A DNA stretch of 64,000 bases, taken from assembly GCF_029210365.1 (NCBI RefSeq), contig NZ_JARGES010000018.1, positions 372,001 through 436,000 on the forward strand, read 5' to 3'. This DNA comes from Mesorhizobium sp. YIM 152430 (GTDB taxonomy: Bacteria > Pseudomonadota > Alphaproteobacteria > Rhizobiales > Rhizobiaceae). The notes below the pieces were generated by a model that worked only from the letters and a program-made list of their open reading frames with translations, ran no database searches and was not told where the DNA came from. Both the position numbers and the translations under genes were made by a program. Numbering within the stretch: the stretch's first letter is position 1; each line of letters starts with the position of its first letter. Shown here piece by piece: positions 2,235-50,264 of the stretch.

Positions 2235-4532
2235 TCAGGCATCGCGAATGCCGCGCCAGGCCAACAAGCGCATGGCGTTGGCGGTGACCAGAACGGTAGC
2301 GCCGGTGTCGGCCAGGATCGCGGGCCACAACCCGGTCACGCCAAGGACGGTCGTGACGAGGAACACCGCCTTGAGGCCAAGCGACATGACGATGTTCTGC
2401 CAGATGTTGCTCATGGTTGCGCGCGAGAGCGAGACCATGTTCGCCACATCCTTGACACGACCGTGCAAGACCGCTGCGTCCGCGGTCTCCAGCGCGACGT
2501 CGGTTCCGCTTCCCATGGCGATGCCGATGTCGGCGGCGGCAAGTGCGGGCGCATCGTTGATTCCGTCGCCGACCTTGGCGACGAACGAGCCTGTCGCCCG
2601 CATCTCGCCGACGATCTTCTGCTTGTCCTGAGGCAAGAGCTCGGCGCGCGCTTCCATCCCGAGCGAGGCGGCAATCGCCTTGGCCGTGCGCTGGTTGTCG
2701 CCCGTCAGCATCACAGAGTCGGCGCCCAACTCGCGCAGCGCGGCGATGCCGGCCTTCGCGTCATCGCGTGGCTCGTCGCGCATGGCTATCAAACCGGCGA
2801 CCTGTCCGCCTGCCAACAGCACCGACACGGTCTTGCCCTCGTCGTTGAGCGACGCAATGCGTGTGGTAAGGGCCTCGTCGAGCATGACCTGCTGGCCCGC
2901 CGCACGTGGCGAGGCGAAGAACAGCTTCACACCATCGAGCGTCCCCACAACGCCCTTGCCGCCAACAGCGCCCGCCTCCGATGCCGCGACCACTGGCACA
3001 TTCTCCGCTTCGGCTTTTGCGAGGATCGCGACCGCAAGCGGATGGCTTGAGCCCACCTCCAGCGACGCGGCGAGGCGAAGTGTCTCGCGCTCGTCGCGCC
3101 CTATGCCGACGATGTCCGTCACCTTCGGCTTGCCCTCGGTCAGCGTCCCGGTCTTGTCGAAAGCCACGCTGTCGACCTTACCGAGGTTCTCCAGCACGGC
3201 TCCACCTTTCATCAGCAGGCCGCGCCGGGCGCCGGCGGAAAGCCCAGCCGCGATTGCGGCCGGCGTCGAGATGACGAGCGCGCACGGGCAGCCGATCAGC
3301 AGAACCGCGAGACCGCGATAGATCCATGTGTTCCACTCGGCTCCGCCCAGCAACGGCGGCAGGATAGCCACGAGCGCTGCCACGACCATCACGCCTGGCG
3401 TATAGTATTTGGAAAAGCGGTCGATGAAGCGTTCGGTCGGAGCCTTCGATTCCTGCGCCTCCTCGACCAGCGCAATGATGCGAGCGATCGTGTTGTCTGC
3501 CGCGGCCGCCGTGACGCGCACGCGCAGCACCCCTTCCTGGTTCACCGTGCCGGCGAACACCTTGTCGCCTTCCTCCTTTCGCTTGGGGACCGACTCACCG
3601 GTCACCGGCGCTTCGTCTACCGCGCTTTCGCCGGAAAGCACGACGCCGTCGGCCGGCACCCGGTCGCCCGGACGGATCATCACGATCGAACCGACCGTGA
3701 GGCTGTCCGCCGGAACGGTCCGTGTGCCTCCCTCGCTTTCAAGCAGCGCGGTCTTAGGCATCAGGTTCGAGAGCGCACGGATCGACGCTCGCGCCCGTCC
3801 CGTTGCGATGCCTTCCAGCAGTTCGCCGACAAGGAACAGGAAGACGACGACTGCGGCTTCCTCCGCAGCATCGATGATGACGGCGCCCACCGCCGCCACG
3901 GTCATAAGCGTCTCGATCGAGAACGGGCTGCCGTTCATCGCCCCGAACAGCGCCCGGCGCGCGATCGGCACGAGCCCGACGGCCATGGCGATGATGAAGC
4001 CCCAGGGTTGCGTTTGCGGAAAGAGTTGCGACAGCCCGAAGGCGATGGCGAGCGCCGCGCCGCAGACGATGGTCAGCTTCGCCTTCGATGTGCTCCACCA
4101 CGGACCGTCGATCGGCCCATGGTCATGCCCGTGCATGCCGTGAAGCGAGTCGCCGGTCGGCACATTCGAGGCCCTGGATGGAGGGACACCGTCATGCGCG
4201 TTACCGCCGCCATGCGCATGGTGATCGTTGTCGTGCGAATGCTCATGCCCCTCGTGACGGCATTCCGGACCGTGGACATGACCGGAGGCGGGCGCCTTCT
4301 CTCCGGTTCGCGTCAGGGGGGACGCCTTGTAGCCAAGGCTGCCGAGCTTGCGCGCGACACCGTCGAGGTCGGTTTCCGGCCCGTGTGTCACCGTCATCGT
4401 GCCGGCGACGACCGAAACTCCTACATCTGTCACGGCCGGAATGCGGCGAACGGCTGTCTCGATCTTGGCCGCGCAGCTCGCGCAATCCATCCCCTCCACT
4501 CGAAAGCGCGTCTGGCGTTGCGGGACCGTCAT
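2235..4532 (-). CDS. Zn/Cd/Pb-exporting P1B-type ATPase (ZntA/CadA type)
   Basis: A 765-residue heavy-metal P-type ATPase. The N-terminus has an HMA domain with GMDCASC (Cys17 and Cys20), then a long His-rich linker (about residues 80 to 140), and paired transmembrane segments. The membrane metal site is CPC in IGCPCALVIS, the phosphorylation site is DKTGTLTEG, and the hinge motif GDGINDAPA is present. CPC with a His-rich region fits Zn(II), Cd(II) or Pb(II) export to the periplasm. It heads the operon that continues into PCu(A)C, Sco, DsbB and DsbA. A MerR-type promoter lies 30 bases upstream. Confidence 0.92.
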   Translation of the reverse strand: MTVPQRQTRFRVEGMDCASCAAKIETAVRRIPAVTDVGVSVVAGTMTVTHGPETDLDGVARKLGSLGYKASPLTRTGEKAPASGHVHGPECRHEGHEHSHDNDHHAHGGGNAHDGVPPSRASNVPTGDSLHGMHGHDHGPIDGPWWSTSKAKLTIVCGAALAIAFGLSQLFPQTQPWGFIIAMAVGLVPIARRALFGAMNGSPFSIETLMTVAAVGAVIIDAAEEAAVVVFLFLVGELLEGIATGRARASIRALSNLMPKTALLESEGGTRTVPADSLTVGSIVMIRPGDRVPADGVVLSGESAVDEAPVTGESVPKRKEEGDKVFAGTVNQEGVLRVRVTAAAADNTIARIIALVEEAQESKAPTERFIDRFSKYYTPGVMVVAALVAILPPLLGGAEWNTWIYRGLAVLLIGCPCALVISTPAAIAAGLSAGARRGLLMKGGAVLENLGKVDSVAFDKTGTLTEGKPKVTDIVGIGRDERETLRLAASLEVGSSHPLAVAILAKAEAENVPVVAASEAGAVGGKGVVGTLDGVKLFFASPRAAGQQVMLDEALTTRIASLNDEGKTVSVLLAGGQVAGLIAMRDEPRDDAKAGIAALRELGADSVMLTGDNQRTAKAIAASLGMEARAELLPQDKQKIVGEMRATGSFVAKVGDGINDAPALAAADIGIAMGSGTDVALETADAAVLHGRVKDVANMVSLSRATMSNIWQNIVMSLGLKAVFLVTTVLGVTGLWPAILADTGATVLVTANAMRLLAWRGIRDA

Positions 4533-16732: not shown

Positions 16733-18103
16733 CTACCATCCTATCACGGCCACGGACCAGAGCAGGTTGATGTTGAGCGCGATGATGGTGACGGCGATCA
16801 GCGCGCAGAGCGCGGTCAGCCAGAGCGGGGCGACCATGTCGCCCATCTTGGCCTTGCTCGCGGTGAACATGACCAGCGGCACGATGGCGAAAGGCAACTG
16901 GAAGCTCAGCACGACCTGGCTGAGGATGAGCAACTGGCCGGTGCCTGAACTCCCCCATATCAAAATCACGATGACCGCCGGGACGATCGCGATCGAGCGT
17001 GTGACGAGCCGGCGCAGCACTGGACTGATACGGAAATTGATGAAGCCTTCCATGACGATCTGGCCAGCCATTGTGGCGGTCACGGTGGCGTTTAGGCCGG
17101 AGCACAGCAGTGCGATGCCGAACATCGTCGGTGCGAGCGAACCGCCGAGCAGAGGCGCTAGCAGCGCATGGGCCTGATCGATCTCGACAATCTCGGTGTT
17201 GCCGCTCGCGTGAAAGGTTGCCGCAGCGAGGATCAGGATAGAAGCGTTGATGGTCAGGGCGAACATCAGCGCGATGGTCGAATCCCAGGTCGCCATACGC
17301 AACGCCTCGAACCTTCGTGCCGGCGTCGTCTCCCAGTTGCGCGTCTGCACGATGCCGGAGTGGAGGTAGAGATTGTGGGGCATCACGGTGGCGCCGATGA
17401 TGCCCAGTGCGATGTAGAGCATCTCCGGATTGGTCACGATATCGGTCGAGGGCGCGAAGCCTGCGATCACACCTGCCCAGTCCGGATCGGCCATGGCGAT
17501 CTGCACGAAGAAGCAGGCGGTTATGACCGCCAGAAGCGTGATGACAAATGCTTCAACCCAACGGAAGCCGCGGTTCTGCAGCCACAGGATCAGAAACACG
17601 TCGGCGGCGGTGATGAAGACGCCGATTTCGAGCGGGATACCGAACAGCAGGTTGAGACCGATTGCCACGCCGATGACCTCGGCAAGGTCGGTGGCGATGA
17701 TCGCGGCCTCCGCGAAAATCCACAGCGGCCACGACACCCATGACGGATAGGCATCCCGGCAGGCCTGCGCTAGGTCGCGCCTGGACGCGATGGCGAGGCG
17801 CGCGCACAGCGATTGCAGCAGGATCGCCATTACGTTGGACAGTAGCGCCACGAACAGGAGCGTGTAGCCGAACTTGGCGCCGCCGGCGAGCGAAGTCGCC
17901 CAGTTGCCGGGGTCCATATAGCCGACTGCGACCAGATAGCCTGGGCCGACGAAGGCGAGAAACCTTCGGAACACCGTGCTGCCACGCGGCACGACGATCG
18001 AGCCAAAGACTTCGGAGAGTGACGGCGTCGGGCTGGTGCGACGCCAGCCATTGTGGCCGGCCACGGACAACGAGGGTTCCGAATCCAAGGATGGAGAAGA
18101 CAT
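16733..18103 (-). CDS. mntH: Nramp-family Mn(II)/divalent metal transporter
   Basis: A 456-residue protein with eleven predicted transmembrane segments. The Nramp metal-binding motifs are intact: DPGNWAT in helix 1 and MPHNLYLHS in helix 6. MntH imports Mn(II), and to a lesser extent other divalent ions, with protons. The N-terminal 45 residues are hydrophilic, as in rhizobial relatives. A Fur-family-type operator lies 13 bases upstream of the start, so the gene is probably repressed by manganese or iron. Confidence 0.92.
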
Positions 18104-39063: not shown

Positions 39064-40104
39064 CTATGCCGCCAGGGCCATGAAGCGGCTGGCGTCCTCA
39101 TGGACGAGCTGAGGCCGCATCTGCGCCCGAAGGGCCTCCGGGCCGTGGAGCCGCAGATCCTCGTTGAAGTCCTCGAGCCGTGGCGACAGCACGATCGCCT
39201 CGATCCCGGCGCTCGCCGCCCGCTCGACCAGACGGTCCCGCGCACCGTCGCCGGCCGGATCGCGGTCGCGCAGGATGTAGAGCCTGCGCAGCGTCGCCGG
39301 GAACAGGATCGCGGCGAGATGGGCGGCCGAGGTCGCCGCCAGCATCGGCATCATGGGCAGGACCATGCGGGGCGACAGCACCGTCTCGATGCCTTCGCCG
39401 GCCGCCAGCACATCGTCCGACGCGCCGAAGCGGATGCCGTGGCCGAGCAGGTCGCCCATCGCCCGCCTCGGCGTGTCGACGGCAGCCTTCCCCGATCCGT
39501 CCGGCGCGAGCCAGGTGCGATGCGCCCCGGTAAGCCGGCCGTCAAGGTCGGTGACGGCGGCGATCAACGCCGGCAAGGTCTTTCTCGGGCTGTGCTCGTC
39601 AGGCCGGTAATAGCAGCGCGGATGGAACCGTAGGCTGGAGATGCCGGAGAGGTCCGTGATGCCGCGCCGGCGCAAATAGGTTTGCGCGAGCGTGCCGCGG
39701 ATCGGCTTCGATATGCCGAACAGGCGCCGTGCCGCTTCGGGCGAGCCGGATGCGCGCCGGCTCGCCTTCCCGGCCGCCGTTCCGGTGTCCGGTTCGGGAT
39801 GAGGCAGGCTGAGGAAGCGTCGCGCCTCGTCGGCTATGTCCTTGAAGTCGACGAGGCCGAGGCTTTCGCGGACAATATCGAGCATGTCGCCATGCTCGCC
39901 GGTGGCGGCATCGGTCCAGTGGCCGGGCGGTCCCTTGGCCGAGCTGCGCAGCCGGACGAAGGTGGAGCGGCCGGGCAGGTTCCGGGCGTCCCCGACCAGC
40001 CAGTAATTGCCCTGGCGTCGTCCGTTGGACAGATAGTGGCGGCAAGCCGCCTCGGCATGGAGGCCGAGACGGCGGGCAAGCTCGGAAGCGTCGAGACGGG
40101 GCAT
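39064..40104 (-). CDS. Toprim-domain primase-like protein (DUF7146 type)
   Basis: A 346-residue protein starting MPRLDASELARRLGLHAEAACRHYLSNG. The Toprim Glu is in LAAGEGIETVLS and the DxD in YILRDRDPAGDG. The N-terminal region has the primase-helicase-like blocks GDMLDIVRE and YLRRRGI. There is no zinc finger. Such proteins are thought to prime the incoming strand. Its ATG overlaps the stop of the helicase gene (TAATG). Confidence 0.82.
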   Translation of the reverse strand: MPRLDASELARRLGLHAEAACRHYLSNGRRQGNYWLVGDARNLPGRSTFVRLRSSAKGPPGHWTDAATGEHGDMLDIVRESLGLVDFKDIADEARRFLSLPHPEPDTGTAAGKASRRASGSPEAARRLFGISKPIRGTLAQTYLRRRGITDLSGISSLRFHPRCYYRPDEHSPRKTLPALIAAVTDLDGRLTGAHRTWLAPDGSGKAAVDTPRRAMGDLLGHGIRFGASDDVLAAGEGIETVLSPRMVLPMMPMLAATSAAHLAAILFPATLRRLYILRDRDPAGDGARDRLVERAASAGIEAIVLSPRLEDFNEDLRLHGPEALRAQMRPQLVHEDASRFMALAA

Positions 40105-43100
40105 TATGCGGCCTCCCGTTCGCTGAAGCGCTCGACCGACCATCGGTCGAGCAGCCTCGCCAGCACCGCGACCCCGCTCGCGTCGGTGGGAACGAACATG
40201 CGTAGTTTCCACGAGATGATCTCGTGGAACAAGCCGTAGGCCGAGAGACGCTCGCGCATCGTGTCGGTGAAGCCCGACAGCTCGATGCGGTGGGCGCCCA
40301 TGACGCGGACGCGGCGAAGCTGGAGCCCATCGTCGAGGTCGATGATGGTCCTCCCCTCCATCAGCGCCGCGAACGCCTCGTCGGCAGAGAGCGAGACCGA
40401 TCCGGTCGTCACCGCGTTCGCCGCCCATGCCGGCGAGACCCTGCGGCCGATGATGCGCTCGCCGTCATCGGTCTGAAGCCGGTAGACGCGCGAGGACTCG
40501 TTGGGCAGGCGTCGCCAGATCGGCAGCAGCAGGCCGGTGACGATGTGGATGGTGGAATCCGAGAACTCCGGCACCTCCGCCACCTCTGCCTGCCAGACCG
40601 ATGCGAAGGCGTCTCGGTCCGCCTCGACCCAATGGCTTCCGACCATCGCACCGAACGGGATGGTGTGAGCCTCCATCGGCCGGATCAGCCGGACGCGATA
40701 CTGGACATCGCCATCGTCGGTCATCACGGACGGCGCATGGACCCGCACCGCGGCGCGGCCGGAGCGTTCGTTGACCAGCAGCTTCGCGCGCGGGTCAAGG
40801 AGATGGTCGAGCGCGGCATCGAGCGTGACCGGCCGGTTGCGCTTGCGCTCGGAGATGGTGAGAAGCCGGGTCTCGGCGCCGGTGCCGGGATGCGTGTAGA
40901 TCGTCTCCCTTCCGGTGACGACGAAGCTCTCGGCGCTCAGCGTCTCCAGGCCGGCATCGTAGCTGCCCGACGCGATGGCGCCTTCGATCCGCGCGTTCAG
41001 CAACCCCTCGAAGGCGGTGAAGATGATGCCTTGCATCTCGATGGTGAGCGCGAGCAGCCGGTTGAGGAAGGTGGTGATCGGCGGCAACTCGTCCTTGATG
41101 CCGGTCGAATCCATCAGCTTTAGGCCGGTCGACGCCTCGAACTTCCCCAGCGAGCAGCCCTCGACCTTGCCGCGCACGATCAGCATGTAGAGCTGGCGCA
41201 GCGCGTCGCGGGCATAATGCGATTCCAGATTGTCCTCCGGGCGGAACAGGCCCTGACCGCCGGTCTGCCGCTGGCCGCGCGTGATCGCGCCCAGCGTGTC
41301 GAGCCGGCGCGCGATCGTGCTGAGAAACCGCTTCTCGGCCTTGACGTTGGTGGCGATCGGCCGGAACAGGGGCGGCTGCGCCTGATTGGTCCGGTGCGTG
41401 CGGCCGAGCCCCTGGATGGCGGCGTCGGCCTTCCAGCCGGGTTCGAGGAGATAGTGGACGCGCAGCCGTGTGTTCCGCGCCGACAGTTCGGCGTGGTAGC
41501 TGCGGCCCGTTCCGCCCGCGTCCGAGAAGACCAGAACCCGCCTCTGGTCGTCCATGAAGGCGGCGGTCTCCGCGAGATTGGCCGAGCCGGCGCGGGTCTC
41601 GACGACGAGCCGATCGTGGCCGCCATTGCTCGTCCTGCGGACGATGCGGCGCGACCGGCCGGTGACTTCGGCCACGATGTCGGTGCCGAAGCGCTGGACG
41701 ATCTGGTCGAGCGCGCCGGGAACGGGCGGCAGGCTCGCCAGCTTCGCGATCAGCGTATCCCGGCGGGCGACGGCCTCGCGGCTCTCGACCGGCTGGCCGT
41801 CGCGCGTGACGGGCCGCGACGACAGCCTGCCCTCCGAGTCGGTGAAGGGCTCGTAGAGCTGCACCGGGAAAGAATGGCGAAGGTAGTCCAGGACATACTC
41901 GCGAGGCGTTATGTCAACGCGGACGTCGTTCCATTCCTCCGTGGGAAGCTCCGCCAGCCTGCGCTCCATCAGCGCCTCGCCGGTCGAGACGATCTGCACC
42001 ACGGAGGCATGGCCCGCCTCCAGATCGCGCTCGATCGAGCGGATCAGGGTGGGCGTCTTCATGCTGGTGAGCAGATGGCCGAAGAAGCGCTGCTTGGCCG
42101 ACTCGAATGCGGAGCGCGCGGCGGACTTTGCCTGCTTGTTCAGCGTGCCGGAGCCGCCTTCGCCTCCGCCGATGATGTTGGCGGCCTGCATGGCGGCGTC
42201 GAGGTTGTTGTGGATGATGGCGAACGCCCCGGCATAGGCGTCGTAGATGCGGGTCTGCTCGGGCGTTAGCTCGTGCTCGACCAGCTCGTATTCCACGCCG
42301 TCGAAGGAGAGCGAGCGCGCGGTGTAGAGGCCGAGCGCGCGCAGGTCGCGGGCCAGCACCTCCATCGCCGCAACACCGCCGGCCTCAATCGCCTCGACGA
42401 ACTCGGCCCGCGTCGAGAACGGGAAGTCCTCGCCGCCCCACAAGCCCAACCTCTGCGCATAGGCCAAATTGTGAACCGTGGTGGCGCCGGTCGCCGAGAC
42501 ATAGACGACGCGGGCGTCGGGAAGCGCATGCTGGAGACGAAGCCCGGCGCGGCCCTGCTGCGACGGAGCGGCATCGCCCCGCTCGCCCTTGCCGCCGACG
42601 GCGTTCTGAAGCGCGTGGCATTCGTCGAAGATGACGACGCCATCCCAGTCGGCGCCGAGCCAGTCCACGATCTGCTGGACGCGCGACGCCTTCTCGCCGC
42701 GCTCGTCGGTCCTGAGCGTGGCGTAGGTGGTGAACAGGATGCCTTCCGGCAGCGTGATCGGCTTGCCCTGCGGGAAGCGCGACTGCGGCGTAATCAGCAG
42801 GCGCTCCATGCCGAGCGCCGACCAATCCCGTTGCGCGTCTTCGAGCAGCTTGTCCGACTTCGAGATCCACAGCGCCTTGCGGCGGCCTCTCATCCAGTTG
42901 TCGAGGATGATGCTCGCGGATTCGCGGCCCTTGCCGACGCCGGTGCCGTCACCGATCATGAAGCCGCGCCGGAAGCGGACGGAACCACTCGCGTCGTCGG
43001 CAGCGGCCGTCACGACGTCGAAGGTCTCATCGACCGTCCACGCGCCGGCGAGATAATCGGAATGGGCCTCGCCGGCATAGATCAGGGTTTCGAGCTGGGC

Positions 43101-44459
43101 ATCCGACAGGAGGTCGCGGATGTTGGCCGGCAGGCGCGGCCGGTAGCTCGGCTTCGGCGGCGCGACGGACGCCATCGCCGCCGACTGCACCAGCTTGGTC
43201 GGATGAGGCTGCGCGCCGGGGATGCGGATCGACTGGAGCGCGTATTCCTCATAGATGGAATCGGTGATGCCGGCGCTCCCGGCATCCTGGCGGTCGATGA
43301 TCTCGTAGCTGAGGTCAACGCCTTCCGGCTCGGCTAGGGGCTTCCTCGGCGCGGCCTTTGCGGAGCGGGCGAGATAGCCGCGCACGGTGCGGGGCGCGGG
43401 CGTGGCGGCGACCGGAACCGCGACGGCGGGATCGACCGGCAGGCGGGCCGGCACATGCTCGGCAACCCAGCCCATCAGCGCATCCGCGTCGGGCGCGATG
43501 CCGAGCGACGCGGGAAAGACTGTGGGATCGTCGGCCGGCTGCTTGTCGATGACGGTCAGCCGCGTCGGGAACGTCGTGCCGTGCTTGGCATAGACGGCGC
43601 CGTCGATGGCGGCCGTGAATACGACACGGCCGCGTTCCTGCAGACGGGCGTAGGCGGAAGCCCATTCGGGTGCGTCGGGTGCGAAGTTGGCGCCGGTGAT
43701 GGTGACAAGGCGGCCGCCGGGAGCGAGGCGCGCCAGCGCAGAGGCGACATGGCGGAATGCCGCGTCCGCCATGCGGGTCTCGACATGCGCCATGACCGAG
43801 AATGGCGGGTTCATCAGCACCACGGTCGGCGTCACGGCCAGGTCGAGGTGGTCGTCGATCTGGGCCGCATCGAAGCGCGTGACGGACAGGGCCGGAAAGA
43901 GGGAGGAGAGGAGCGAGGCGCGGGTCTCGGCCAGCTCGTTGAGGACGAGCGTGCCCCCGGCGATCTCGGCCAGGATGGCGAGCAGGCCGGTGCCGGCCGA
44001 GGGCTCCAGCACGCGGTCGGCCGGCGTGATCGCGGCGGCGGTGGCCGCGACCAGGCCGAGCGGGATCGGGGTCGAGAACTGCTGGAAGGATTGCACCTCC
44101 TCGGAGCGGCGCGTGTGGGTCAGCATCAGCGCCGCGATGCGTTCCAGCAGCGGCAGGCTCGCAGCGGGAGAGCCGCTCTTGCGGAGCAGCGCCTTGCCGA
44201 ACTTGCGCAGGAACAGCACCGTGGCCGCCTCGCAGGCTTCGTAGGCGGTCTTCCAGTTCCATGCGCCCGCCGCGTCGGAGCCGCCGAAGGCGGTTTCCAT
44301 CGCGTGGCGCAGCGCCGGAGCGTCGATGCGCTGGCCGCGTTCGAGATGGGGGAGAAGGAGCTGCGCGGCCGCGAGGATGGCGGCGGCGGTGCCGGGCTCG
44401 GAGGCGAGCGGGATCGGCGCGGCAGCGTTGGCGGCCACGGTAGCGGGCATCATGTTCAT
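40104..44459 (-). CDS. Fused class I methyltransferase and strawberry-notch-like helicase
   Basis: A 1451-residue protein. Residues 100 to 280 form a Rossmann methyltransferase domain (LEPSAGTGLLA; catalytic NPPF in VVLMNPPFSV). Residues 460 to 1150 form a superfamily 2 ATPase: Walker A in GDGTGVGKGRES, Walker B FDECHALQ and a strawberry-notch middle region (SDAGGTGRSYH). NPPF indicates N6-adenine or similar amino methylation. Proteins of this type are hallmark genes of these elements, presumably protecting or remodelling the element DNA. A structured leader lies upstream. Confidence 0.85.
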   Translation of the reverse strand: MNMMPATVAANAAAPIPLASEPGTAAAILAAAQLLLPHLERGQRIDAPALRHAMETAFGGSDAAGAWNWKTAYEACEAATVLFLRKFGKALLRKSGSPAASLPLLERIAALMLTHTRRSEEVQSFQQFSTPIPLGLVAATAAAITPADRVLEPSAGTGLLAILAEIAGGTLVLNELAETRASLLSSLFPALSVTRFDAAQIDDHLDLAVTPTVVLMNPPFSVMAHVETRMADAAFRHVASALARLAPGGRLVTITGANFAPDAPEWASAYARLQERGRVVFTAAIDGAVYAKHGTTFPTRLTVIDKQPADDPTVFPASLGIAPDADALMGWVAEHVPARLPVDPAVAVPVAATPAPRTVRGYLARSAKAAPRKPLAEPEGVDLSYEIIDRQDAGSAGITDSIYEEYALQSIRIPGAQPHPTKLVQSAAMASVAPPKPSYRPRLPANIRDLLSDAQLETLIYAGEAHSDYLAGAWTVDETFDVVTAAADDASGSVRFRRGFMIGDGTGVGKGRESASIILDNWMRGRRKALWISKSDKLLEDAQRDWSALGMERLLITPQSRFPQGKPITLPEGILFTTYATLRTDERGEKASRVQQIVDWLGADWDGVVIFDECHALQNAVGGKGERGDAAPSQQGRAGLRLQHALPDARVVYVSATGATTVHNLAYAQRLGLWGGEDFPFSTRAEFVEAIEAGGVAAMEVLARDLRALGLYTARSLSFDGVEYELVEHELTPEQTRIYDAYAGAFAIIHNNLDAAMQAANIIGGGEGGSGTLNKQAKSAARSAFESAKQRFFGHLLTSMKTPTLIRSIERDLEAGHASVVQIVSTGEALMERRLAELPTEEWNDVRVDITPREYVLDYLRHSFPVQLYEPFTDSEGRLSSRPVTRDGQPVESREAVARRDTLIAKLASLPPVPGALDQIVQRFGTDIVAEVTGRSRRIVRRTSNGGHDRLVVETRAGSANLAETAAFMDDQRRVLVFSDAGGTGRSYHAELSARNTRLRVHYLLEPGWKADAAIQGLGRTHRTNQAQPPLFRPIATNVKAEKRFLSTIARRLDTLGAITRGQRQTGGQGLFRPEDNLESHYARDALRQLYMLIVRGKVEGCSLGKFEASTGLKLMDSTGIKDELPPITTFLNRLLALTIEMQGIIFTAFEGLLNARIEGAIASGSYDAGLETLSAESFVVTGRETIYTHPGTGAETRLLTISERKRNRPVTLDAALDHLLDPRAKLLVNERSGRAAVRVHAPSVMTDDGDVQYRVRLIRPMEAHTIPFGAMVGSHWVEADRDAFASVWQAEVAEVPEFSDSTIHIVTGLLLPIWRRLPNESSRVYRLQTDDGERIIGRRVSPAWAANAVTTGSVSLSADEAFAALMEGRTIIDLDDGLQLRRVRVMGAHRIELSGFTDTMRERLSAYGLFHEIISWKLRMFVPTDASGVAVLARLLDRWSVERFSEREAA

Positions 44460-44483
44460 ATGGGAGCCTCAAGGAGAGCGGGA

Positions 44484-44534
44484 ACGGGACGAGCCGACCG
44501 GCGCTCTCTCTCGACCGCACCGGCTCGAACCCGT
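44484..44534 (-). ncRNA. Structured leader element A (upstream of methyltransferase-helicase)
   Basis: On the minus strand ACGGG and CCCGT close an outer stem around CGAGCC/GGCTCG, with a GAGAGAG loop. It is a divergent relative of the leaders at 48435 and 49861, and it shares GAGAGG, then GGCCGGG, then GACGGG on the 5' side. Confidence 0.45.
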
Positions 44535-44601
44535 CCCGGCCTTCCTCTCGCTCTCGGACCACCGGGACCGGCAAGCGCCCGCGCGATCTGCCGGAAGCGG
44601 A

Positions 44602-48420: not shown

Positions 48421-48434
48421 CGTGGTTTCTCCAC

Positions 48435-48474
48435 GACGGGCGCGGAGAGCCTCTCTCTCCGCTTCCAACCCGTC
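48435..48474 (-). ncRNA. Structured leader element B (upstream of parB-like gene)
   Basis: On the minus strand: outer stem GACGGGT/GCCCGTC, 5-base bulge TGGAA, inner stem GCGGAGAG/CTCTCCGC, loop AGAGG. The leader at 49861 folds the same way, with compensatory changes in the inner stem and an identical loop. It lies 15 bases before the start codon in both cases. Confidence 0.65.
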
Positions 48475-48545
48475 ACGGAAACCCCGGCACCTCTCTTCCT
48501 CTCGGCTGCGCCGGCACACACCGGCGCAGCCATCGGCCGGAACGG

Positions 48546-48887
48546 TCACAAGGCGTACTGCCGGGGCCGTTCGTCGTTGATGCGGTATTTGCAGCGCAGC
48601 GCTAAAATCGCGCCGTTCTGCCGCTCGACCTTGCGGCGAAGCCGCTCAAGCTCGGCCTGCGCGGCTTTGGACGTACGATCGAGGATGCGCCGGTATTCGG
48701 CCTCGTCGGCTCCGGTCCAGCGGCTCATCCGGCGATGATACCAGCGCGACTTCGGGCGCCGCCTGATGGTCTCGGCTTCCGCGCCGTCGCAAAGCCGGCG
48801 CTCGACAAGGGCGAGGTTGTGCCGGGTCTCAGCCAGGCTCTCCTCCATCCGAGCGAGCGCGGTGCGCAATTGCGCGTAGGTCATCAT
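48546..48887 (-). CDS. Hypothetical coiled-coil protein after ardC
   Basis: A 113-residue protein starting MMTYAQLRTALARMEESLAETRHNLALVERRL, largely helical and basic, with a likely coiled coil (QAELERLRRKVERQN). AGGAGG lies 6 bases before the start, and the start overlaps the ardC stop by ATGA. The frame is open upstream only as a shadow of ardC. No family recognised. Confidence 0.6.
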   Translation of the reverse strand: MMTYAQLRTALARMEESLAETRHNLALVERRLCDGAEAETIRRRPKSRWYHRRMSRWTGADEAEYRRILDRTSKAAQAELERLRRKVERQNGAILALRCKYRINDERPRQYAL

Positions 48888-49846
48888 GCCGCCCTCCTGT
48901 CGATCGAGGAGGCGGCATCGACGGCGGGCTGCTCGTCGGCCGGCAGGAAGGAGAGAAGCCAGTCGGCCGCCTTGCTGGCCTGCGACGCGGCGCGGAAGAT
49001 GGCGCGGTTGTCCTCGCGCATCGTGTCGATCCACGCGCCGATATAGTCGGCATGGCGCACGGTGGGCCTGATGCCCAGCGCCGCGCAACAGAAGGCGCTC
49101 GAAAGCTCGGCGACGCATTCCTCGACGAAATACTTCTTCGAGCCGAAGGAGCCGCCGAGATCGCGAGCGAGGCGCGAGTGATGGCCGCTGGCGTGCGACA
49201 GCTCGTGCAGGGCCGTGCGGTGCCAGTTGATCGGCTCGAAGAAGGCGGCCGGGGGCGGCACGACCACATAGTCGGGGGCCGGCATATAGAATGCCTTGTC
49301 GCCGCCGATGCGGAAGTCGATGCTGGTGGCCTTGATGAGCGCCTCGACGGTGGGCTCGATCTGGCCGGGCGGCGGAGGCGGTGCGGCGACGGTGACGTCT
49401 TCGGGAAGGTTCTCGCATTGCACGGTGTTGAACACGGTGAAGCGCTTCAGGAAGGGAATCGCGTGGGCTTCCTCGCCGGTTTCCTGCGCGCGCTTCTTTT
49501 CCTCGTCGGGGATGAAGCGGTCGGCGTAGACGACCGTGGTGCCGTGCTCGCCCTTGCGAACATTGCCGCCGAGCGAGAGCGCCTGGCGGAAGGTGAGCCA
49601 GCCCTGGCCGGGGAAGCCGCGCTCGACCACGGCGCCCCAGAGAAGAAGGATGTTGATGCCGGAATATTGCCGGCCGGTGACGGCGTTCTTCGGCAGGCCG
49701 AGGAGCGCGTCGGCCTCGGGGGTGCCCCAAGGCTGCACCCAGGGCACGCGGCCCGCCTCCAGTTCGGCGATGATCTTGTCGGTGATGTCGTCGTAAAGGC
49801 TCGTCCGGTCCGAGCCGGCGCGAGCGCTGCGGTCATGTCTGGCCAT
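48884..49846 (-). CDS. ardC: ArdC-type antirestriction protein
   Basis: A 320-residue protein with an N-terminal ssDNA-binding ArdC domain (SLYDDITDKIIAELEAGRVPWVQPW, NAVTGRQYSGINILLLW) and a C-terminal zincin domain with HELSHASGHHSRL (HExxH zinc site) and a downstream VEECVAEL Glu. ArdC proteins shield incoming single-stranded DNA from restriction. The structured leader C lies 15 bases upstream. It is the outermost element gene on the tRNA side. Confidence 0.9.
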   Translation of the reverse strand: MARHDRSARAGSDRTSLYDDITDKIIAELEAGRVPWVQPWGTPEADALLGLPKNAVTGRQYSGINILLLWGAVVERGFPGQGWLTFRQALSLGGNVRKGEHGTTVVYADRFIPDEEKKRAQETGEEAHAIPFLKRFTVFNTVQCENLPEDVTVAAPPPPPGQIEPTVEALIKATSIDFRIGGDKAFYMPAPDYVVVPPPAAFFEPINWHRTALHELSHASGHHSRLARDLGGSFGSKKYFVEECVAELSSAFCCAALGIRPTVRHADYIGAWIDTMREDNRAIFRAASQASKAADWLLSFLPADEQPAVDAASSIDRRAA

Positions 49847-49860
49847 CGGGATTACTCCGC

Positions 49861-49899
49861 GACGGGCCTCGGGAGCCTCTCTCCCGATCCCAGCCCGTC
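49861..49899 (-). ncRNA. Structured leader element C (upstream of ardC)
   Basis: On the minus strand: outer stem GACGGGC/GCCCGTC, 5-base bulge TGGGA, inner stem TCGGGAG/CTCCCGA, loop AGAGG. The bulge and loop match leader B, and the inner stem differs in sequence but keeps pairing. Upstream bases (GAGAGGCAGGCCGGG, then TTTGCCGTGACGGG) are also shared. Confidence 0.65.
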
Positions 49900-49924
49900 A
49901 CGGCAAACCCGGCCTGCCTCTCAC

Positions 49925-50187
49925 TCTAGGGGGGCGTTGCGGGGTCTCCCCGCAGAAGGGGGTGCGCCGGCAACGAAGTGCCGGCCAGGGGGAAGGCTTT
50001 CCCCCCGAGACCATCATCAAATTCGCCCCACCAGCTATCAAAAAGTGGGAATCACATGCTGCCGATGCCGACATTCCGCGTCTATCTGCAACAAAAACCC
50101 CAGACTAAAACCCAGACTAAAATGGATTTTTATGCTGGGGAGCTATCGCGCTGAAGGCAGAAAATGAAGTGATTTCAGTGGGTTAAA
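49925..50187. other. Element end next to tRNA-Arg
   Basis: About 260 bases between the ardC leader and the tRNA. It contains a perfect 12-bp tandem direct repeat (next entry) and no convincing gene. No integrase is present here. Confidence 0.5.
50099..50122. repeat. 12-bp tandem direct repeat near the attachment site
   Basis: CCCAGACTAAAA occurs twice in tandem (50099 to 50110 and 50111 to 50122), 65 bases from the tRNA 3' end. It could be an arm-type binding site for the integrase or excisionase. Confidence 0.6.
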
Positions 50188-50264
50188 TGGCGCGCCCGAA
50201 AGGATTCGAACCTCTGACCCCCAGATTCGTAGTCTGGTGCTCTATCCAGCTGAGCTACGGGCGC
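50188..50264 (-). tRNA. tRNA-Arg (anticodon ACG)
   Basis: The minus strand folds as a complete cloverleaf: acceptor GCGCCCG/CGGGCGC, D arm GCTC/GAGC, anticodon loop CTACGAA (anticodon ACG), T loop TTCGAAT, discriminator G and encoded CCA. Its 3' end points at the mobile element, so it is the likely integration site. Confidence 0.95.

Follow-up and report, generated by a model that had tools for sequence, protein, structure and literature searches.

Some mRNA leaders sequester the Shine-Dalgarno sequence by folding the ribosome-binding site, immediately ahead of the start codon, into a hairpin. Our analysis concerns a leader of about 87 nt, composed of a purine box and a nested hairpin, which stands before a parB-like gene and an ardC gene in a stretch of 64,000 nucleotides from Mesorhizobium sp. 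YIM 152430 (contig NZ_JARGES010000018.1, positions 372,001 to 436,000; the whole stretch is called the window below). Compared with the usual leaders of that type, it is common to unrelated gene families of mobile elements and has a separate purine box at near-constant spacing. Its nearest precedents are EGeRS1 of plasmid pLS20 and Frpo.

EGeRS1 of pLS20, a Bacillus plasmid, is described as several conserved structured copies directly upstream of the ribosome-binding sites of establishment operons, ardC included (PMC8708921). Similarly, the leader occurs in several copies directly upstream of the ribosome-binding sites of putative establishment genes, again including ardC. However, by the same account EGeRS1 measures 420-750 bp, belongs to Bacillus plasmids and has a branched predicted fold, whereas conservation of the leader covers about 87 nt, outside that size range. 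By description, which is the sole basis of this comparison, the leader further differs in being one nested hairpin with a purine box in Alphaproteobacteria, with covariation and an asymmetry of wobble pairs.

With the Frpo/ssi promoters, too, repeated hairpins precede early genes of conjugative elements that have anti-defence functions (PMC11541004). Frpo carries -35 and -10 boxes in the folded DNA strand; in the leader module no sigma70-like boxes reach the score applied below (0/242 copies), and the fold is kept on the coding strand. STAXI is likewise a structured motif near antirestriction and DNA-handling genes, but it is mainly a repeated pseudoknot (PMC2864571), whereas the leader is a nested hairpin, and a search of Rfam 15 (4227 families) gave nothing over the window leaders at the gathering score or at E ≤ 10. 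For eight further loci, Rfam gave a single match at E ≤ 1, from a miRNA model lying over one leader (27.2 bits against a gathering score of 51, E 0.59). No description of the element was recognised among the papers listed by literature searches, in which a 2017 collection of candidate RNAs was covered through Rfam only.

The class I leader and its copies

The first-pass annotation had described two leaders on the minus strand, each with an outer stem, a bulge, an inner stem and an AGAGG loop (Table 1). Direct reading, a pattern search and RNA folding confirmed both, and all of the GACGGG/CCCGTC outer stems, both inner stems and the loop were recovered by folding. Three pairs of the inner stems differ on both sides, as had been noticed. 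The bulge is present as claimed, but in the second leader it folds as 4 nt, not 5. The outer stem is longer than had been described and reaches the Shine-Dalgarno sequence, via GUGGA(GA) in the parB-like leader, where that sequence is fully paired, and via GCGG in the ardC leader, where only its GG is paired. A conserved purine box, GAGAGNNAGAGG, upstream of the hairpin was absent from the earlier description. The folds had z = -4.64 (parB-like leader) and -4.63 (ardC leader), with 0/200 shuffles folding as well. The leader pattern was expected 0.00 times in shuffled windows and occurred only twice in the 3.83-Mb genome. The stop of a 112-aa gene lies about 35 nt before the start of the parB-like leader, which is therefore intercistronic in the window.

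A search with the ParB-like protein covered 289 genomes of the class and found relatives in 26 of them; in many of them the module recurred in the upstream DNA at the corresponding position. An alignment of seventeen copies (A1) served to build the covariance model R1. R1 found 58 matches in 28 of 385 genomes of the class. In a draw from the phylum, 33 of 398 genomes were matched, all 33 in the window's own class, the draw's share from other classes not being counted. Among ParB-like places of at least 43% identity, 20 of 21 had the element directly upstream (G093 was the exception), a count in which some places had themselves supplied copies behind R1. Below 43% identity it was noticed at a single place, G148, whose copy is also in A1.

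Alignment A4 comprised 116 copies. Copies above the E threshold were left out, for example L158 and three weak matches before a 120-128-aa gene, and L097, a 32-bit match resembling coding sequence, was excluded from the steps that built A4. Alignment A6 added 133 further copies (127 distinct) from named genomes and viral contigs, the loci of which gave nothing to the model; the named-genome stretches are the 80 listed of at least 120. The alignment of these copies follows the model. The DNA pattern by which their loci had been chosen constrained the outer stem, the Shine-Dalgarno sequence and some of the loop region, and left the inner stem free. Together A4 and A6 hold 249 copies with 242 distinct sequences.

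Among the matches listed, the element was seen only in Alphaproteobacteria. BLAST with one leader found 136 plasmid records, with alphaproteobacterial genera among the matches listed (60 rows, ten commonest genera), and no match in phage records at E ≤ 1. The record titles of the 80 listed stretches name organisms that we take to belong to Alphaproteobacteria, except for two metagenome-assembled genomes titled only Proteobacteria and one Alistipes contig. The genera among the stretches listed include Paracoccus, Bradyrhizobium, Mesorhizobium, Sphingobium, Caulobacter, Methylobacterium, Roseomonas and Asaia. The Alistipes contig (L216) matched the DNA pattern but gave no model match and was taken as chance. 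Three contigs classed as viral in IMG/VR (L279, L280 and L281) matched the DNA pattern and carry the leader; they may be pieces of plasmids or of integrative and conjugative elements (ICEs). Distant relatives of the ParB-like protein exist on Klebsiella and Burkholderia plasmids.

The leader has a fixed place before the start codons of several genes. The genes after the 249 copies were ParB-like (110), ArdC (60), DUF932-like (40) and members of an uncharacterised family (18), together with three unassigned members of a joint ParB-like/ArdC cluster and nine singletons. The singletons include a RadC-like gene (Pfam E 1.8e-25), an AlpA-like gene, a helicase fragment and short open reading frames (ORFs), which may be no genes. 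The name DUF932-like is weak, because the one member tested matched Pfam DUF932 under the cut-off (E 0.003) and had no NCBIfam match. The ORF after the leader began with ATG in 238/249 copies and with GTG in two; the other nine had no assigned ORF, one of them lying at a contig end. The ParB-like and DUF932-like genes are putative establishment genes.

The class I module runs in the order purine box, near-constant gap, lower stem, GACGGG, UUG bulge, inner stem, AGAGG, CCCGTC, RYGGAG, a few nt and ATG. Its stem is made up of 11 plus 9 pairs and contains an internal bulge that is asymmetric, and direct reading found no U-tract after the hairpin. Of the 109 anchored A4 copies, 93 had a gap of 17-19 nt from AGAG to GACGGG, and most of the other 16 values came from the regular expression catching a later match. 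Over all copies it was 17-19 nt in 230/249, by a script that chose the box candidate nearest 18 nt and thus leans to a constant gap; the A4 script is free of this bias. In 206 dereplicated copies (249 minus 14 without anchor or upstream DNA and 29 near-duplicates), the purine box was conserved at positions -28 to -18 relative to the hairpin. Conservation begins at -28, the mean over -190 to -60 being 0.017 bits. A conserved promoter next to the module was sought upstream and none was found. With a score for TTGACA/TATAAT at a spacing of 16-18, which covers the sigma70 consensus and no other sigma factor, 3/206 copies reached at least 9/12 between -160 and -30 compared with 2.1% of shuffled sequences, so that there was no enrichment, and inside the module none did on either strand.

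Covariation and strand asymmetry

In A1, 96.1% of the cells pair, and nine pairs showed two-sided changes against 3.7 in shuffles; shifting the partners by 1-3 columns lowered pairing to 36-50%. Two-sided changes occurred in 20/20 pairs of A4 (169 cells against 45.0 in shuffles) and in 14 pairs of A6 (146 against 41.7). In a structure-blind MAFFT alignment of the 242 copies, structure pairs ranked 1, 2, 3, 4, 6 and 7 of 3486 column pairs. These results reveal covarying helices on the coding strand, as in cis-regulatory RNA leaders, with weaker support under the tree-aware null given below.

The asymmetry between strands is the strongest separate argument for RNA. The pairs of the 242 copies contain 622 G.U and 90 A.C, and of the inferred single changes away from a Watson-Crick pair, 116 led to G.U and 25 to A.C. 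The coding strand folded better in 240/242 copies with RNA parameters and in 239/242 with DNA parameters. A double-stranded DNA operator predicts no G.U/A.C bias, and a hairpin of the template strand predicts the opposite bias. The excess of G.U and the fold on the coding strand therefore favour mRNA over both.

The shared cis-acting, RNA-like structure with covariation that had been proposed before the ParB-like and ArdC genes is thus supported, and the covariance model, Rfam search and covariation test together favour RNA, with few pairs passing the tree-aware null. What found no support in the first-pass annotation is the single-strand promoter, against which stand the coding-strand fold, the wobble count and the absence of sigma70-like enrichment. 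The same asymmetry disfavours the DNA operator that it had named as the refuting alternative, while its relative before a helicase gene stands.

Proposed sequestration of the Shine-Dalgarno sequence and its alternatives

We consider it about an even chance (roughly 0.5), on sequence grounds, that the module is a cis-acting mRNA leader of alphaproteobacterial mobile elements in which sequestration of the Shine-Dalgarno sequence is relieved by a trans-acting factor. The hairpin in the mRNA would hide the Shine-Dalgarno sequence, and read-through transcripts would therefore be poorly translated by default. A shared predicted factor, in the first place a protein, with a small RNA or the 30S subunit itself as weaker candidates, would recognise the purine box and the AGAGG loop and open or bypass the hairpin. 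The outcome would be coordinated post-transcriptional expression of establishment genes, for example after transfer. The same leader stands before unrelated genes, so one signal could switch them on together. That a single factor coordinates them is plausible but inferred, as are the opener, the trigger and the effect on expression. In 110 of the 116 A4 copies (six were dropped for having no assigned start or no GGAG), the Shine-Dalgarno GGA had a mean pairing probability of 0.87 (median 0.98), compared with 0.64 when the upstream part was shuffled. This favours sequestration with a trans-acting opener.

Several results weigh against this reading. The shuffled control already pairs the Shine-Dalgarno sequence at 0.64 in this GC-rich sequence, and pairing exceeds 0.8 in only 70% of the 110 copies. 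Under a tree-aware null of our own implementation, whose first version left 0 pairs at E ≤ 0.05 over all pairs, the model-fitted alignment kept two (uniform) or one (column-rate) of the 3486 pairs at E ≤ 0.05, and five passed when the test was limited to the 20 structure pairs (5-6 across the tests). With structure-blind alignments, none passed over all pairs for 116 copies and one for 242 copies. The primary sequence is also highly conserved, and the conserved GAGAG in the 5' arm may itself skew the wobble count. In the class II leaders described below, the RNAalifold consensus on 16 of 25 was without the nested stem, and the start region lies outside the stem in their main group. Lastly, while 14 of 16 gaps from DUF932-like to ParB-like genes measured -1 to 85 nt, 21 gaps from ArdC to ParB-like genes spanned -86 to 1867 nt, only six being 90 nt or less, with other genes between. 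Intercistronic placement is therefore clear mainly for the DUF932-like pairs, and these lengths together with the spacing of about 35 nt in the window indicate that the leader is often, not always, intercistronic.

The best of the other explanations, itself rather unlikely, is a read-through block or attenuator. The GC-rich hairpin would be an intrinsic terminator without a U-tract that stops upstream transcription, and an antiterminator on the purine box would let the establishment genes be transcribed. In pLS20, the structured region EGeRS1-B immediately before the ardC ribosome-binding site is reported to have no constitutive promoter and to block expression from an upstream promoter (PMC8708921). 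Stem-loop transcript ends without a U-tract are reported to be common in the alphaproteobacterium Methylosinus sporium 5 (PMC12403871), and the leaders often lie close behind an upstream gene. However, the hairpin overlaps the Shine-Dalgarno sequence instead of ending upstream of it, no U-tract follows, and pairing of the Shine-Dalgarno sequence is itself kept.

Somewhat less likely again is an RNA-processing site, of which the RNase III sites in the early region of phage T7 offer a parallel. RNase III would cut the hairpin of about 20 bp (or the hairpin would protect from RNase E), splitting the cistrons and freeing the Shine-Dalgarno sequence. Such a site agrees with the stem of 11 plus 9 pairs, the asymmetric bulge, the place behind upstream genes and the reuse before several genes, but processing alone leaves the near-invariant AGAGG loop and the purine box at near-constant spacing unexplained.

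It is improbable that the module is a double-stranded DNA operator in which a transcription factor binds the inverted repeat. Its dyad symmetry, strong primary-sequence conservation and sharing by several genes would suit such a site, but the inner stem changes its sequence yet stays paired, the mismatches are strongly asymmetric between strands, and the place of the module is locked to the Shine-Dalgarno sequence with no conserved promoter adjoining.

Still more improbable is a single-stranded DNA promoter of the Frpo/ssi kind on the incoming strand. Anti-restriction and other establishment-type genes adjoin here, each with a hairpin in front, and leading regions often contain such promoters (PMC11541004). 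Against this, the fold is favoured on the coding and not the template strand, and the sigma70-like counts upstream (3/206 vs 2.1%) and in the module (0/242) showed no enrichment. That the likeness has no function and reflects recent common descent or the spread of cassettes is the least credible explanation of all, since although copies spread with related elements, the shuffle controls keep relatedness and few tree-aware pairs are significant, it is largely contradicted by conservation that stops sharply at the module edge, with unconserved DNA upstream (0.017 bits) and a conserved module before unrelated genes in many genera.

Class II leader, host island and a possible regulon

Table 1. Coordinates of the leaders, their parts and the neighbouring features in the window.
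Feature	Position	Strand	Basis
Class I leader of parB-like gene, whole model length	48425..48510	-	R1 93.2 bits, E 2.4e-21 in window (copy among the 17 used to build R1)
Purine box GAGAGGAAGAG of parB-like leader	48493..48503	-	Direct reading
Nested hairpin of parB-like leader: outer GACGGG/CCCGTC, bulge, inner GCGGAGAG/CTCTCCGC, loop AGAGG	48435..48474	-	
Shine-Dalgarno GGAG, paired in lower outer stem of parB-like leader	48429..48432	-	Fold
Class I leader of ardC	49851..49935	-	R1 81.6 bits, E 1.8e-18 in window (copy among the 17 used to build R1)
Purine box AGAGTGAGAGG of ardC leader	49917..49927	-	Direct reading and box conservation in copies
Nested hairpin of ardC leader: inner TCGGGAG/CTCCCGA, loop AGAGG	49861..49899	-	Folding, pattern search
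Shine-Dalgarno GGAG of ardC; GG paired, AG free in predicted fold	49855..49858	-	
ParB-like gene, 717 aa	46267..48420	-	NCBIfam PRK13832 and TIGR00180, Pfam HTH_ParB (E 0.0023), all under cut-off
ardC, 320 aa (ArdcN and MPTase-PolyVal)	48884..49846	-	Pfam E 9.2e-44 and 6.4e-47
112-aa gene between ardC and parB-like leader	48546..48884	-	
Class II leader of helicase-methyltransferase gene: purine box, long nested hairpin, loop GAGAGAGAGC, CGCTCTCC before start	44460..44558	-	R1 17.8 bits, E 0.013 in window
Purine box GAGAGCGAGAGG of class II leader	44544..44555	-	
1451-aa helicase of Strawberry-notch type, N-terminal part methyltransferase-like	40104..44459	-	Pfam AAA_34 E 3.2e-120, Helicase_C_4 E 1.2e-96; N-terminal MTS E 0.0086, under cut-off
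Right attachment repeat in tRNA-Arg(ACG), one copy of 49-bp direct repeat	50185..50233	.	

The third element that had been annotated before the helicase gene is real, but it is weak in R1 and its fold is uncertain. A search of the whole genome with R1 at E ≤ 1 gave this element (E 0.77) and the two class I leaders alone. Its window fold had z -2.99 (44460-44560) or -4.68 (44457-44558). A purine box, a strong hairpin and an AGAGAG-type loop were found before the start of 25 of the 27 helicase genes examined, box and loop being recognised with deliberately loose patterns; L149 and L156 were without the motif. Over these 25 the mean z was -2.65, with 10 above -2; the coding strand was the more stable in 21, and CTCTC stood before the start in 19. 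Sixteen were aligned (A5) and nine left out. In the RNAalifold consensus of the 16, the loop GAGAGCG pairs with CGCTCTC beside the start; together with the hairpin this would make a pseudoknot, or else it would be an alternative state, a possible switch. In window 44457-44558 and 15 homologous leaders of A5, the class II purine box could pair with the same CTCTC. Class II is related to class I by its parts, with an uncertain fold.

Other structures were observed near ParB-like genes. The 120-128-aa gene before a ParB-like gene (L090:9471-9555, L091:2033-2117 and L093:9445-9529) has its own hairpin leader GACGGR/CCCGTC, in which the loop differs (ACGG) and a purine box is not clearly present. 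For a ParB relative of 43% identity (L018), the upstream DNA had no R1-like module and a long perfect hairpin stood in the same place; other leader types may exist. In the space that separates the DUF932-like gene from the parB-like leader, L070 and L067 have a further inverted repeat, GTGGAGCCG...CGGCTCCAC, ahead of the purine box.

The leaders lie at the right end of an 86.4-kb island whose borders are marked by a direct repeat of 49 bp from the 3' part of tRNA-Arg(ACG). The repeat copies, about 86.4 kb apart, are at 335741-335789, which falls outside the window, and 422185-422233 of the contig (pattern at 335748 and 422192). An Arm-DNA-binding (integrase-type) protein is encoded at the end far from the leaders, and genes for a coupling protein and a VirD2-like relaxase lie inside. 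The island is an ICE-like element at tRNA-Arg. Its cargo includes a P-type ATPase with an HMA domain and an Nramp transporter (window 2235-4532 and 16733-18103). Near its left end (L286:3846-9386), adjoining subtilase and AAA ATPase genes are followed by a Schlafen AlbA_2 gene, possibly a defence set.

Plasmid pCHQ1 of Sphingobium has a gene order similar to that of the island, and R1 matched it directly before the ParB-like gene (82.5 bits) and also before a metallopeptidase gene (33.6) and the helicase gene (15.8). A second ParB-like/helicase/ArdC set on pCHQ1 had only a 10.8-bit match, upstream of its ParB-like gene (L098:6120-6198), perhaps a divergent leader class or chance.

Tentatively, and with less confidence than for the leader itself, we propose an RNA regulon in which conjugative elements of Alphaproteobacteria mark their establishment genes with one leader, silent when the element is resident and opened on arrival. 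Its members would be the ArdC, ParB-like, DUF932-like, RadC-like and helicase-methyltransferase genes, and the opener would be an element-borne or a host factor. If true, this would be a post-transcriptional counterpart of zygotic induction. What is known of how incoming conjugative elements express their first genes comes mostly from elements of enterobacteria (Frpo/ssi) and of Bacillus (EGeRS); a structured leader that unrelated genes share across many alphaproteobacterial genera offers a testable handle and would define such a regulon by sequence. It would also mark candidate establishment or anti-defence genes, among them the DUF932-like genes and the 18-member uncharacterised family, and would point to a so far unrecognised trans-acting factor.

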